From NCBI RefSeq assembly GCF_001696715.1, contig NZ_MBFM01000003.1:248298-309540 (forward strand): DNA of 61,243 bases, given 5' to 3'. The stretch comes from Thauera phenolivorans (GTDB lineage: Bacteria > Pseudomonadota > Gammaproteobacteria > Burkholderiales > Rhodocyclaceae). Made by a program: the position numbers and the translations under genes. The notes under the pieces are model-generated. The model was not told the DNA's origin. It was given only the letters and a program-made list of their open reading frames with translations, and ran no database searches. Positions 23,166-30,737 of this stretch are shown one piece after another. Position 1 is the stretch's first letter; each line of letters begins with the position of its first letter.

Positions 23166-23221
23166 GACCGCGCCGCCGCCCGCCGCGCTAGGCGACCGCG
23201 CCGCCGCCCGCCGCGCTAGGC
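23166..23221. repeat. Exact 28-bp tandem duplication at the 3' end of the DUF1328 gene
   Basis: The unit starting GACCGCGCCGCCGCCCGCC is present at 23166-23193 and 23194-23221, and GACCGCGCC begins a partial third copy at 23222. The DUF1328 stop codon (CTA on the plus strand, at 23216-23218) lies inside unit 2. On the minus strand the copy downstream of the stop repeats codons resembling the GAVA C-terminus. Confidence 0.85.
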
Positions 23222-23389
23222 GACCGCGCCGATGCCGAGCAGCGCGAGCACGACGAAGACGATGAACAGCAACAGGAAGATGCCGAACAACAGTTTGGCG
23301 ATCTTTGCCGCGCCCGCGGAGATGCCGGTGAAGCCGAGCAGACCGGCGATGATGGCGATGACGGCGAAGATGATGGCCCATTTGAGCAT
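23216..23389 (-). CDS. DUF1328 small membrane protein (YtjA-like)
   Basis: 57 residues from ATG 23389, with GGAGTCAGTC just upstream. It consists almost only of two hydrophobic helices: [20 protein letters not shown] and [20 protein letters not shown], separated by TGISAGAA. This is the pattern of DUF1328/YtjA inner-membrane peptides of unknown function, often stress-induced. It lies between the convergent transglycosylase gene and chrA. The C-terminus falls in the 28-bp tandem duplication. Confidence 0.92.
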
Positions 23390-24831: not shown

Positions 24832-25602
24832 TCAGGACGAGGCCTGACGCCGGCGCGCGCGCGCCTCGCGCTGGGCCTCGTCCTGCGCCTCGCCGAGCAC
24901 CTCCTGCACGAACAGCAGGTGGCGGCCGGAGATCTCGCGCGCCGCCTCGGCGCGCCGCTCGATGATCGCCTGGTAGAGCTCGGTGTGCTGGCGCATCAGG
25001 GTGTCGCGCACCTCGGTGCCCTGCGGGTACATGCCGCCGATGTTGGTCACCACGCTGCGCTTGAGCATGGCGAACAGGCTGCGGATCGTGTGCAGCAGCA
25101 CCGCGTTGTGGCTGGCTTCGGCGATCGCGAGATGGAAGTGGGCGTCGGCCTCGCCCTCGCGTACGCGATTGATCCGTCCTTCGCCGGCGTAGCACGCGAT
25201 CAGGGCCTCGTAGGCGGCGCGCAGGCGCTGCTGGTCGAGCTCGGTCGCGCGCAGCGCGGCGTAGTAGGCGCATGCGCCTTCAAGCGTGTGCCGGAACTCG
25301 AGCAGGTCTCGCTGCGCCTCGGGATTGCTCCCGAGCAGCGCGAGCAGGGGGTCGCGGAAGGAGGAGCCGATCTCGGCGCTGACGAAGGTGCCGCCCCCCT
25401 GGCGGCTGACGAGCAGACCGCGCGCGGCGAGCTTCTGCAGGGCCTCTCGCAGCGACGGCCGCGAAACACCGAACTCGGCGGCGAGGGTGCGCTCGGCGGG
25501 CAGCCGTTCGCCGGGCTTCAGCGAGCCCTCGAGGATCAGGGTTTCGAGGCGTTCGACGATCTCGTCCGACAGTCGGCGCTGCTGCAGTGGAACCGCTCTC
25601 AT
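24832..25602 (-). CDS. lldR: GntR/FadR-family transcriptional regulator of lactate genes (LldR-like)
   Basis: 256 residues from ATG 25602. N-terminal winged helix (~8-76) includes LKPGERLPAERTLAAEFGVS and RPSLREALQKLAARGLLVSR; residues ~95-235 form the FCD effector domain with the metal/ligand residues in DAHFHLAIAEASHN and MRQHTELYQAI. It is divergent from lctP-lutABC, the standard arrangement for LldR/LutR. A TGGT-N3-ACCA site lies before lctP. Expected action: repression lifted by lactate. The Glu/Arg-rich tail after ~240 is extra. Confidence 0.88.
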   Translation of the reverse strand: MRAVPLQQRRLSDEIVERLETLILEGSLKPGERLPAERTLAAEFGVSRPSLREALQKLAARGLLVSRQGGGTFVSAEIGSSFRDPLLALLGSNPEAQRDLLEFRHTLEGACAYYAALRATELDQQRLRAAYEALIACYAGEGRINRVREGEADAHFHLAIAEASHNAVLLHTIRSLFAMLKRSVVTNIGGMYPQGTEVRDTLMRQHTELYQAIIERRAEAAREISGRHLLFVQEVLGEAQDEAQREARARRRQASS

Positions 25603-25731
25603 GGGAACTCCGTTCGCTTTCCGGGGCTGCGCGCCGCGCGCGCAGCCGAAACCGACCAAGGGGCGTGCCGCTGGCAAGCACGCGATCGCCGGCGATGATT
25701 ATGTGGGAATGAGTTTTTCTGATTCAGGCAA

Positions 25732-25790: not shown

Positions 25791-25908
25791 AAACGCGATA
25801 AAATCCATATCCACGCCGTACGAAGGGGCGAGAGATGCAAATCGGAGTTCTTGAAGAAGATCGCGCGTGCCTGCTTGCGCGCAATACGACGCGGCGGGCG
25901 GGCTGAGG

Positions 25909-27606
25909 ATGCAGGCCGGAACCCTCGCCTTTCTCGCCTTTTCTCCCATCCTGCTCGCCGCGATACTGCTGGTCGGGCTGCGCTGGCCGGCCAGGCGGGC
26001 GATGCCCGTCGTCTACATGTTGACCGCAGGCATCGGCCTGTTCGCGTGGGACATGAGCGTCACCCGGGTGCTCGCCTCGACCCTGCAGGGACTGGTGATC
26101 ACGATCGGCGTGCTGTGGATCATCTTCGGCGCGATCCTGCTGCTGAATACCCTCAAGTACTCGGGGGGGATCGCCGAAATCCGGGCCGGCTTCGCCACCC
26201 TCAGCCCCGACCGCCGCATCCAGGCGATCGTCATCGCCTGGCTGTTCGGCTGCTTCATCGAGGGCGCCTCGGGCTTCGGCACCCCGGCGGCGATCGCCGC
26301 CCCGCTGCTGGTGGCGATCGGCTTTCCGGCGATGGCCGCGGTACTGCTCGGCATGCTGGTGCAGAGCACCCCGGTGTCCTTCGGCGCGGTGGGCACGCCG
26401 ATCATCATCGGCGTCAACAGCGGTCTCGACACCGCCGCGCTCGGCGCCCAACTCGCCGAGCGCGGTTCTAGCTGGGACGCCTTCCTGCAGCTGATCACCG
26501 GCAACGTCGCGATCCTGCATGCCCTGGTCGGCACCCTCATGCCCTTCGTCATGGTGCTGCTGCTGACCCGCTTCTTCGGGCGCGAGCGCAGCTGGCGGGC
26601 CGCCTTCGAGGTGCTGCCCTTCGCGCTCTTCGCCGGCCTGGCGTTCACCGTCCCCTACGTCCTCACCGGCGTCTTCCTCGGACCGGAGTTTCCCTCGCTG
26701 CTGGGCGGCCTCGTCGGCCTGGCGATCGTGACCACCGCGCTGCGCTTCGGCTTCCTGGTGCCGAAGACGACCTGGGACTTCGCCGACGCGAAGGACTGGC
26801 CCGCCGAGTGGCTCGGCAGCGTCGAGATGAAGCTCGACCAGATGCCGCACCACCACCGCATCGGCGCGCTGCGCGCCTGGCTGCCCTACGTGCTGGTGGG
26901 CCTGCTGCTGGTGCTGAGCCGGGTGCTCCCCGAACTCGGCGCGGCGCTGAAGTCGGTGGTCGTGGTCTTCCCCGAGATCCTCGGCGAGAAGGGCATCAAG
27001 GCCGACTTCATGCCGCTCTACCTGCCGGGCGGAATCCTGGTGGCGGTGGTGCTGATCACCGTCTTCCTGCACCGCATGCACGCGCGCTCGCTGGCGAAGG
27101 CGGTCGGCGAGTCCTCGCGGGTGCTGCTCGGCGCGGGCTTCGTGCTGCTCTTCACCGTGCCGATGGTGCGCATCCTGATCAACTCCGGCGTCAATGCCGC
27201 CGACCTGCCGAGCATGCCGATCGCGATGGCGCAGTGGGTGGCCGACAGCGTGGGTGACGTGTATCCGCTGCTGGCGCCCTCGGTAGGCGCACTCGGCGCC
27301 TTCATCGCCGGCTCGAACACGGTCAGCAACATGATGCTGAGCCAGTTCCAGTACGGCGTCGCCACTTCGCTCGGGATCTCCGGCGCGCTCGTGGTCGCGG
27401 CGCAGGCGGTCGGTGCGGCCGCCGGCAACATGGTGGCGATCCACAACGTGGTCGCCGCCTCGGCGACGGTCGGCCTGCTCGGGCGCGAGGGCGCGATCCT
27501 GCGCAAGACCTTCTGGCCCACGGTGTACTACGTGCTGATGTGCGGACTTCTGGTGTTCGTCGCGATCCACCTGCTCGGCATCGGCGACCCGCTGGTGGCG
27601 GGTTGA
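25909..27606 (+). CDS. lctP: L-lactate permease
   Basis: 565 residues from ATG 25909; a GTG at 25867 in the same frame is an alternative but adds a hydrophilic segment. About 13 membrane helices with the LctP motifs [45 protein letters not shown] and [17 protein letters not shown]. It imports L-lactate, and often D-lactate or glycolate, with protons. It heads the lactate operon: hairpin, then lutABC. The start codon has GAGG touching it rather than spaced, so translation initiation may be weak or use the GTG. Confidence 0.93.
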
Positions 27607-27703: not shown

Positions 27704-28522
27704 ATGAGCCAGTTTTCCTCCGCCCCACCGAACGCGACCCGGGTGGCACCGCCGCCCGCTGCGCCGCGCAGCTACCCGGCCAAGCCGACCGACGTCTATC
27801 TGTTCGGCACCTGCGTGATCGACCTGTTCTTTCCCGAGGCCGGGCTCGACGCGATCCGCCTGCTCGAGCGCGAGGGCATCCGGGTGCATTTCCCGCAGGC
27901 CCAGAGCTGCTGCGGCCAGCCGGCCTACACCTCGGGCTACACCGGCGAGGCGCGCGAAGTGGCGCGCGCCCAGCTCGGCCTGTTCGAGAAGGACTGGCCG
28001 GTCGTGGTGACCTCGGGCTCGTGCGCCGGCATGATGCGCCAACACTATCTCGACCTGTTCCGCGACGAGCCGCAGACGCTGGCGCGGGTTCAAGCGCTGT
28101 CCGAGCGCATCTTCGAGTTCGCCGAGTTCCTGCTCGAGGTCTGCCGGGTGAAGCTGCAGGATCGCGGCGCGCCGGTGAAGATGGCGCTGCACACCTCGTG
28201 CAGCGCGCGGCGCGAGATGGGGACGCTCGAGCACGGCCGCGTGCTGCTCGGCCAGCTCGACAAGGTCGAGCGCGTCGATCACGACCACGAGAGCGAGTGC
28301 TGCGGCTTCGGCGGCACGTTCAGCGTGCGCATGCCCGACATCTCCGGCGCGATGGTGGCGGACAAGACGCGTGCGCTGAAGGATACCGGCGCCGACGCGG
28401 TGGTCAGCGCCGACTGCGGCTGCCTGCTCAACATCAACGGCGCCTTCGCCAAGCAGGGCGAGCGCCTGCAGGGCCAGCACATCGCCAGCTTCCTGTGGAA
28501 GCGCACCGGAGGCGGATCATGA
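27704..28522 (+). CDS. lutA: Lactate utilisation protein LutA/YkgE, cysteine-rich (Fe-S)-binding
   Basis: 272 residues with two CCG-type cysteine-rich domains: QSCCGQPAYTSGY (~66-78) and ECCGFGGTFSVRMPD (~198-212), plus TSGSCAGMM and SADCGCLLN. These bind a non-canonical Fe-S cluster, as in heterodisulfide-reductase-like subunits. With LutB and LutC it oxidises L-lactate to pyruvate. The first 28 residues are a Pro/Ala-rich extension not usual in the family. AAGGAG lies 9-10 nt before ATG 27704; its stop overlaps the lutB start. Confidence 0.94.
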   Translation: MSQFSSAPPNATRVAPPPAAPRSYPAKPTDVYLFGTCVIDLFFPEAGLDAIRLLEREGIRVHFPQAQSCCGQPAYTSGYTGEAREVARAQLGLFEKDWPVVVTSGSCAGMMRQHYLDLFRDEPQTLARVQALSERIFEFAEFLLEVCRVKLQDRGAPVKMALHTSCSARREMGTLEHGRVLLGQLDKVERVDHDHESECCGFGGTFSVRMPDISGAMVADKTRALKDTGADAVVSADCGCLLNINGAFAKQGERLQGQHIASFLWKRTGGGS

Positions 28523-30069
28523 GCGCCGCCAGCCAGGTTCCGGTCGCCGAGCTCAAGGACTTCCGCGGTCGCGCGCGCGAGGCGCTGGCCGATCCCCAGC
28601 TGCGCGGCAACTTCCGCCGCGCGATGGACTCGTTGATGCTCAAGCGCGCGAACGCCTTCAGCGACGCCGACGAGCGCGAGCGCCTGCGCGCGCTCGGCAA
28701 CCTGATCCGCGCGCGTTCGCTGTCGAAGCTGCCCGAGCTGCTCGAGCGGCTCGAGGCGAGCCTGACCCGCAACGGGGTCCGGGTGCACTGGGCGGAGACG
28801 GTGGAGGAGGCCAACGCGATCATGCTGTCGATCGTCGAGGCCCACCAGGCAAAGCAGGTCATCAAGGGCAAGTCGATGGTCAGCGAGGAGATGGAGATGA
28901 ACCATTTCCTCGCCGAGCGTGGCGTCGAGTGCCTCGAGTCCGACATGGGCGAGTTCATCGTCCAGCTGCGCGAGGAGAAGCCGGCCCACATCATCATGCC
29001 GGCGATCCACCTCAACGCGCGCCAGGTCGGCACCCTGTTCCACGACCGCCTCGACCAGGACTACACCGAGGATGTCGACCTGCTGATCCAGACCGGGCGG
29101 CGGGTGCTGCGTCAGAAATTCTTCGAGGCCGACATCGGCGTGTCCGGGGTGAACTTCGCGGTCGCCGAGACCGGCACCCTGCTGCTGGTGGAAAACGAGG
29201 GCAACGGCCGCATGTCGACCACGGTGCCGCCGGTGCACGTGGCGGTGACCGGCATCGAGAAGGTGGTGGAGAACCTGCGCGACGTCGTGCCGCTGCTGTC
29301 GCTGCTGACGCGCTCGGCGCTCGGCCAGCCGATCACGACCTACGTCAACATGATCTCCGGCCCGCGCAAGCCGCACGAGCTCGACGGTCCGCAGGAGATG
29401 CACCTCATCCTGCTCGACAACGGCCGCACCCAGGCCTTCGCCGACGGCGAGCTGCGCCAGACGCTGAACTGCATCCGCTGCGGCGCGTGCATGAACCACT
29501 GCCCGGTCTACACCCGGGTGGGCGGCCATACCTACGGCGAGGTCTATCCGGGGCCGATCGGCAAGATCGTCACCCCGCACATGGTCGGTCTGGACAAGGT
29601 GCCCGACCATCCGAGCGCCTCGTCGCTGTGCGGGGCCTGCGGCGAGGTCTATCCGGGGCCGATCGGCAAGATCGTCACCCCGCACATGGTCGGTCTGGAC
29701 AAGGTGCCCGACCATCCGAGCGCCTCGTCGCTGTGCGGGGCCTGCGGCGAGGTCTGCCCGGTGAAGATCCCGATTCCGGCCCTGCTGCGCCGGCTGCGCG
29801 AGGAGAACATCAAGGCGCCCGATGCCGAACCGAAGGTGATGCGCGGCCAGGGTGCCAAGTACTCGCGGGGCGAACGCGTGATCTGGAAGATGTGGCGGCG
29901 GCTGAACACCAGCCCCGGCCTTTATCGCGCCTTCCAGCTCGCTGCGACCCGCTTCCGGGGGCTGACGCCGGGCAAGCTCGGACCGTGGACCCAGAACCAC
30001 GTGGCGCCGAAGCCGGCAGCCCGCTCGCTGCACGAACTCGCCCGCGACCACCTCGGAGACAAGTCATGA
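28519..30069 (+). CDS. lutB: Lactate utilisation protein LutB/YkgF, Fe-S protein with internal duplication
   Basis: 516 residues. An N-terminal LUD domain (~75-300; KGKSMVSEEMEMNHFL, ETGTLLLVENEGNGRM) is followed by a ferredoxin-like region. The first cluster motif is CIRCGACMNHCPVY; the second complete one is SSLCGACGEVCPVKIPIP. Between them a 35-residue segment (YPGPIGKI through SSLCGACGEV) occurs twice because of an exact 105-bp tandem duplication, and the extra copy has CGACGEVY, lacking the fourth Cys. Without it the protein would be 481 residues, the family length. The frame is kept, so a product is made; activity is uncertain. It overlaps lutA and lutC by 4 nt each. Confidence 0.93.
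   Translation: MSAASQVPVAELKDFRGRAREALADPQLRGNFRRAMDSLMLKRANAFSDADERERLRALGNLIRARSLSKLPELLERLEASLTRNGVRVHWAETVEEANAIMLSIVEAHQAKQVIKGKSMVSEEMEMNHFLAERGVECLESDMGEFIVQLREEKPAHIIMPAIHLNARQVGTLFHDRLDQDYTEDVDLLIQTGRRVLRQKFFEADIGVSGVNFAVAETGTLLLVENEGNGRMSTTVPPVHVAVTGIEKVVENLRDVVPLLSLLTRSALGQPITTYVNMISGPRKPHELDGPQEMHLILLDNGRTQAFADGELRQTLNCIRCGACMNHCPVYTRVGGHTYGEVYPGPIGKIVTPHMVGLDKVPDHPSASSLCGACGEVYPGPIGKIVTPHMVGLDKVPDHPSASSLCGACGEVCPVKIPIPALLRRLREENIKAPDAEPKVMRGQGAKYSRGERVIWKMWRRLNTSPGLYRAFQLAATRFRGLTPGKLGPWTQNHVAPKPAARSLHELARDHLGDKS
29536..29745. repeat. Exact 105-bp direct tandem duplication inside lutB
   Basis: Copies at 29536-29640 and 29641-29745 are identical at every base, each beginning GGCGAGGTCTATCCGG. 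The sequence after the second copy again begins CGGCGAGGTCT but continues GCCCGG. An 11-bp identity (CGGCGAGGTCT) at the two original boundaries is the likely slippage or recombination site. 105 is divisible by three, so the frame is preserved. Confidence 0.97.
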
Positions 30070-30737
30070 GCGCCAGGGACAGGATCCTCGCCAAACTGCG
30101 CGGTAGCCTTGCCGGCACCAACCCGATCGAGGACCGCTTCGACGAGGAGCTGGTCACCGCGCCGTGGCGCTATCCGGCCGAGGGCCGGGTCGCCCGCCTG
30201 TGCGAACTGATGGAGGCGGTGCATACAGAGGTGCACCTCAGCACCGAGGCCGACTGGCCCGCGCTGCTCGAGCGCCTGATGCTCGATCGGGCGTTGCCGG
30301 AGCTGCTGGTCGCCCCCGCCACCCCCCACGGCGAGCGCGTCGTCTCACACTGGGCCGGACGCGAGGGCCTGCCGCGGCTCAAGGCCTACGACCGCCCGGT
30401 GGAGGAATGGAAGCGTGAGCTGTTCGAGGATACCCCGGCGAGCCTGACCGGCACCCTGGGCGCGATCGCCGCCACCGGCAGCCTGATCATGTGGCCGACC
30501 CGCGACGAGCCGCGCCTGATGAGCCTGGTGCCGCCGGTGCATTTCGCCCTGCTCAAGGCGAGCGAGATCTACGACAACTTCTACGAGGTGCTGCAGCAGC
30601 AGGCCTGGGCGAGCGGCATGCCGACCAATGCCTTGCTCGTCTCCGGTCCGTCCAAGACCGCCGACATCGAGCAGGTGCTCGCCTACGGCGCCCACGGCCC
30701 GAAGGACCTGGTGGTGCTGATCCTCGAGGACGCCTGA
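30066..30737 (+). CDS. lutC: Lactate utilisation protein LutC/YkgG
   Basis: 223 residues of the LUD family. It begins MSARDRILAKLRGSLAG, and has ASLTGTLGAIAATGSLIMWPTRDEPRLMSLVPPVH-type core (quoted in parts: TGTLGAIAATGSL; EPRLMSLVPPVHF) and SGPSKTADIEQVLAYGAHGP near the end. It is the third subunit of the LutABC L-lactate oxidation complex. Its ATG overlaps the lutB stop (ATGA at 30066-30069). It ends the operon, 13 nt from the convergent LysR gene. Confidence 0.95.
   Translation: MSARDRILAKLRGSLAGTNPIEDRFDEELVTAPWRYPAEGRVARLCELMEAVHTEVHLSTEADWPALLERLMLDRALPELLVAPATPHGERVVSHWAGREGLPRLKAYDRPVEEWKRELFEDTPASLTGTLGAIAATGSLIMWPTRDEPRLMSLVPPVHFALLKASEIYDNFYEVLQQQAWASGMPTNALLVSGPSKTADIEQVLAYGAHGPKDLVVLILEDA

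Follow-up and report, generated by a model that had tools for sequence, protein, structure and literature searches.

An exact in-frame 105-bp tandem duplication between the Fe-S motifs of LutB in Thauera phenolivorans, with boundary repeats pointing to replication slippage

The lut operon and the tandem tract in lutB

The window, meaning the whole stretch of 61,243 nucleotides of Thauera phenolivorans DNA that was analysed, contains a lutABC operon together with a lactate permease gene and a putative regulator. The permease LctP (25867-27606, plus strand) matches PF02652 and TIGR00795 (345.8 bits against a cut-off of 341.15). It is followed on the same strand by lutA (27704-28522), lutB (28519-30069) and lutC (30066-30737), with lutB overlapping each of its neighbors by four bases. 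The names of lutA, which has a CCG (cysteine-rich) domain in two stretches, and of lutC, which has a LUD domain and no NCBIfam match, were taken from the operon. On the minus strand, a GntR/FCD-type regulator (24832-25677; PF00392 and PF07729) may have an LldR/LutR-like role, judging from its position. LutB/LldF itself is 516 residues long, contains the LUD, Fer4_8 and LutB_C domains in that order, and passes the cut-off of TIGR00273 (498.6 against 444.8 bits), with the match split in two stretches. Both this domain order and the gene order lctP-lutA-lutB-lutC are shared with LutB/LldF of lutABC operons, whereas the window protein differs by 35 extra residues between its Fe-S motifs, which are 97 rather than 61-62 residues apart by the measure given below. 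The structure search found no LutB structure and returned one weak match, the LUD protein 2g40 (E 0.0025).

The initial annotation described an exact in-frame 105-bp tandem duplication in lutB at 29536-29745, and this is confirmed, with those positions falling inside a slightly longer tract. Within lutB, a tract of period 105 without mismatch extends over 29535-29755, and self-identity at a shift of 105 runs for 116 bases, an exact run that in our judgement, as opposed to a shuffle-based estimate, could not arise by chance when the shift is fixed. Tandem Repeats Finder independently reports 29531-29755 with a period of 105 and 2.1 copies. The self-shift comparison places the first copy of the unit at 29535-29639 and the second, identical copy at 29640-29744, both on the plus strand; the sequence does not distinguish the original from the extra copy. 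The 11-base sequence CGGCGAGGTCT occurs on the plus strand at 29535-29545 (within YGEVY), at 29640-29650 (within CGEVY, a hybrid middle site that forms the new junction) and at 29745-29755 (within CGEVC), and these are its only sites in the window, with none on the opposite strand. The arrangement is that of a slippage duplication, in which two head-to-tail copies come with three occurrences of the bounding direct repeat, one more than the number of copies. The duplication adds 35 residues between ferredoxin-type motifs 1 and 2, so that removal of one copy would give a protein of 481 residues. That 481 is the family length, as first suggested, holds in the sense that it lies within the range of the relatives and is also the length of Ralstonia eutropha LldF (PMC10656315); however, among 50 close relatives, 479 residues (18/50) is commoner than 481 (8/50).

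Boundary sites in single-copy relatives

To date, the duplication is known from this one gene. In the genus, 26 of the 28 other genomes have a LutB-family match (E 1e-50) and none of these matches continues through the second copy, with the caveats that the stretch is masked in one genome (G012), which cannot be judged, and that two others (G011 and G018) contribute a paralogue only. In a family sample of 297 genomes, 136 match at E 1e-100, including the genome under study, and all the others end at or before residue 377. For another family of the class (f161), 60 genomes of a 148-genome sample match at E 1e-50 without spanning the insert; the furthest-reaching match to the first part is a 41% paralogue ending at 382. 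It should be noted that the sequence itself was read in the fetched loci, which comprise no more than the 30 best of each search. A scan of these loci for exact tandem tracts with periods of 40 and more (371,982 bases) returned only the window's own tract, in locus L004. A degenerate junction pattern, which finds the window and is specific to duplications that share these boundaries and have a CGAC-type motif 2, gave a single match unrelated to LutB among the 84,980 species of genome_contigs, a collection from which the genome studied here is possibly absent. That match is in Frankia, and six-frame translation of the 500 surrounding bases gives no LutB-like sequence. Hence, the duplication is absent from every relative read or aligned at the site, contrary to what would be expected of an old family feature, and only the single-copy state is seen in them. 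No report of this lutB duplication was found in a literature search judged on titles and the openings of abstracts.

The relatives are more informative with respect to the boundary sites. Eighty-nine rows were measured, of which one (L027) is masked and was dropped, leaving 88 single-copy rows that represent 87 different genes (L059 and L080 being the same) and are not independent, since some are close kin or paralogues. The two sites are 105 bases apart in 88/88 rows and lie in the same frame, and therefore any slip between them stays in frame. The longest in-register exact run between the sites is 2-7 bases in 83/88 rows and 10-11 bases in 5/88. For example, L072 and L076 carry CGGCGAGGTCT at both sites, 11 bases long and 105 bp apart, without the duplication, and L084, L085 and L087 have a 10-base in-register match in a single-copy gene. 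L072 and L076 are relatives of the window gene rather than its ancestor. All five of these rows are among the 28 (27 genes) that, like the window, have a Glu codon at the first site. Glu is found at this site in 27/30 rows of family f161, and in a LutB tree of 57 rows the window groups with f161 and not with its own genus (support 100/98). Because Glu occurs in single-copy rows and the window falls with f161, the repeat pair is most simply taken to predate the duplication. The proposal of the initial annotation that an 11-bp identity at the junctions explains slippage thus gains support from single-copy relatives with the same 11 bases and the same 105-base spacing (2/88 rows), and slippage at this pair would be the simplest mechanism. 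The five genes with long matches are predicted places for the same duplication.

In the proposed course of events, lutB of this lineage encodes G-E-V twice, before YPGP and within the second Fe-S motif, 105 bases apart. During replication the growing strand would have re-paired one site upstream through the shared CGGCGAGGTCT, such that 105 bases were copied twice, and with both sites in the same frame, the protein would have gained 35 residues while the reading frame stayed open. We regard as reasonably probable a real tandem duplication by replication slippage that leaves LutB working poorly or not at all.

A rather unlikely alternative is that the cell has one copy and that the second was produced during sequencing or assembly. 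The copies are identical and the relatives read or aligned lack the duplication, as this alternative would predict, and the 14 contigs of the assembly, five of them of only 532-1651 bases, suggest short reads. However, the junction sits on an 11-base repeat that is present in the single-copy gene of two relatives, and an overlap or scaffolding error would have no reason to break there. Graph assemblers usually collapse tandem copies rather than invent them, and a short-read assembly may also under-count copies. Exact tandem tracts, scored as a run of at least 30 bases plus a full period, are also rare in this genome, with only one other besides that of lutB in 362,831 bases (the window and 20 further stretches, about a tenth of the genome), and this tenth gives no sign of widespread assembly trouble. 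The window is located far from either end of a 649-kb contig. A real event is favored by the repeat at the junction, its presence in single-copy relatives, the position deep in the contig and the rarity of such tracts.

Fe-S motif spacing and the likely effect on LutB

Ferredoxin-type motif 1, CIRCGACMNHCP (29470-29505, plus strand), is intact with Cys 318, 321, 324 and 328, and the real motif 2, SLCGACGEVCP (29728-29760, plus strand), is intact with Cys 406, 409 and 413. Motif 2 of this LutB clade is naturally a three-Cys motif (SxxCxxCxxxCP), and hence both motifs keep every cysteine of the clade. The duplication has created a decoy motif, SLCGACGEVYPGP (29623-29661, plus strand), in which Tyr replaces the Pro-adjacent Cys, the third of the real motif 2. 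The extra copy had been credited with two or three Cys, which is too loose, as it offers exactly two (371 and 374).

What sets the window protein apart is the span that starts at the first motif 1 Cys and ends at the Pro following motif 2, an empirical measure as opposed to a curated criterion. This span is 97 residues in the window LutB and 62 in 88/88 single-copy rows. In a phylum-wide search it is 61-62 in 28/28 rows (62 in 23 and 61 in 5), these being 28 of 30 fetched loci with two weak other matches omitted, and including some genes already counted among the 88. The value holds even in paralogues at about 35-40% identity. This near-invariance, down to about 35% identity, suggests that the linker length is probably needed. 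As all measured rows have a span of 61-62 against 97 in the window, an impaired LutB appears likelier than an unaffected one. When a ferredoxin fold contains two clusters, each motif supplies its Pro-adjacent Cys to the other cluster; with a longer linker and a decoy CxxC placed between the motifs, disturbed cluster assembly is therefore likely. The motif cysteines are retained, but the Fe-S domain, with a linker 35 residues longer and the decoy CxxC, would most likely fold or assemble badly, and LutB would then work poorly or not at all. A loss of LutB function is likely but unproven, and L-lactate oxidation may be altered, a point argued here from the near-invariant motif spacing only.

Against impairment, an insertion in a linker could be looped out and tolerated. 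A real but functionally neutral duplication of this kind, with a working LutB, would agree with the preserved frame, the presence of the cysteines of both motifs and a TIGR00273 score above the cut-off. Nevertheless, the span of 61-62 in every measured row, paralogues of about 35-40% identity included, and the placement of two extra Cys beside the cluster ligands make neutrality a fairly doubtful outcome.

A natural change in lutB has been described in Propionibacterium freudenreichii, where replacement of Arg by Cys in LutB is associated with the inability to use L-lactate, and the change is undone when selection is applied (PMC12285252). That work predicts bonds from the altered residue to Cys 393 and Pro 390 in an adjacent loop. 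In the parts of that report cited here, the link consists of correlation and reversion, only lutB was sequenced in the revertants, and the authors call for knock-outs. The two cases are alike in being natural changes of lutB, but differ in that the P. freudenreichii variant is a single-base substitution for which the phenotype was measured (PMC12285252), whereas the T. phenolivorans allele is a duplication described from sequence.

Apart from lutB, the operon genes appear intact. A second lut-type operon is present in the genome (contig C11, L111 6801-9700), where LutA-, LutB- and LutC-like genes adjoin pntAB. Motif 2 of its LutB has Asn in place of the first Cys of the main LutB and Cys in place of its Ser. 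The genome also encodes a relative of FMN-dependent dehydrogenases (PF01070, 387.6 bits), with two further weak matches (34.3 and 28.5 bits). As putative L-lactate users, this second operon and the dehydrogenase relative may allow a loss of LutB to be borne. We would like to emphasize that L-lactate use does not necessarily follow from the annotation of a full lutABC operon.

Age, copy loss and ancestry of the operon

The absence of any base difference between the copies was first read as implying a very recent event, if not an artefact. This does not follow, because zero differences in 105 bases only set an upper limit of about 2.9% (at 95%) on how far the copies have diverged, and because repeated slippage would keep them similar. 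The closest LutB found shares 82% identity, and therefore the event can be dated no more precisely than to the time since the two lineages separated.

A 105-base repeat would be an easy substrate for copy loss, and frequent return to a single copy could be expected under selection for L-lactate use. The further step of regarding the repeat as a contingency switch of L-lactate use, with the duplicated gene as a selected reversible off-state, overlaps with the explanation favored above, so that the probabilities given to the readings do not sum to one. It draws on the 105-bp spacing in 88/88 rows, always in frame, and on the fact that all five long matches fall in rows whose first site encodes Glu. 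There is also a known parallel in Salmonella mutL, where 6-bp tandem repeats change in copy number in frame by slipped-strand mispairing, giving functional and defective alleles (PMC2955026). The mutL repeats are short and their interconversion has been observed, in a mutator strain and, in the parts of that article cited here, not in two non-mutator strains (PMC2955026), whereas the lutB unit is 105 bp long and only one of its states has been seen. The constant spacing is explained by constraint on the protein, and no second duplicated case was found in the relatives nor, for these boundaries, in the species collection. A selected switch is accordingly quite improbable. We would give equally little credence to the broader idea that lutB genes of the clade coding Glu ahead of YPGP contain, in their two G-E-V sites, an always-in-frame slippage hot spot that switches L-lactate oxidation off and on in subpopulations through one 105-bp copy.

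The lutB duplication is a single natural allele, most likely an ordinary slippage event, in which both the type of mutation and the enzyme are already known. The allele offers a clean test of whether LutB requires its near-invariant Fe-S linker length, as well as a simple system in which to measure 105-bp tandem copy loss under L-lactate selection.

That gene conversion during the event produced the 11-base match, rather than the match causing the event, was considered because the orthologues within the genus have a Thr codon at this site, and an initial set of 48 rows showed only T (43) or G (5) there, but this idea is refuted and was dropped, given the 28 rows (27 genes) with GAG/Glu and no duplication, the grouping of the window LutB with family f161, and a class-wide pattern matched by 11/274 genomes (including the genome under study), one other of which has Glu.

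The ancestry of the neighboring genes is mixed. LutC is closer to family f161 than to the genus (mean identity of 75% vs 64%), and LutA is not (75% vs 76%). The window operon (27704-30737) may thus have been partly transferred or may represent a deep lineage. A viral scan returned no relative, and a plasmid search returned six partial records at 74-77% identity. A second exact tandem repeat in the window, 28 bp x 2.4 at 23166-23231, has a unit that is not a multiple of three and lies next to the end of a small gene that was read by eye on the minus strand.
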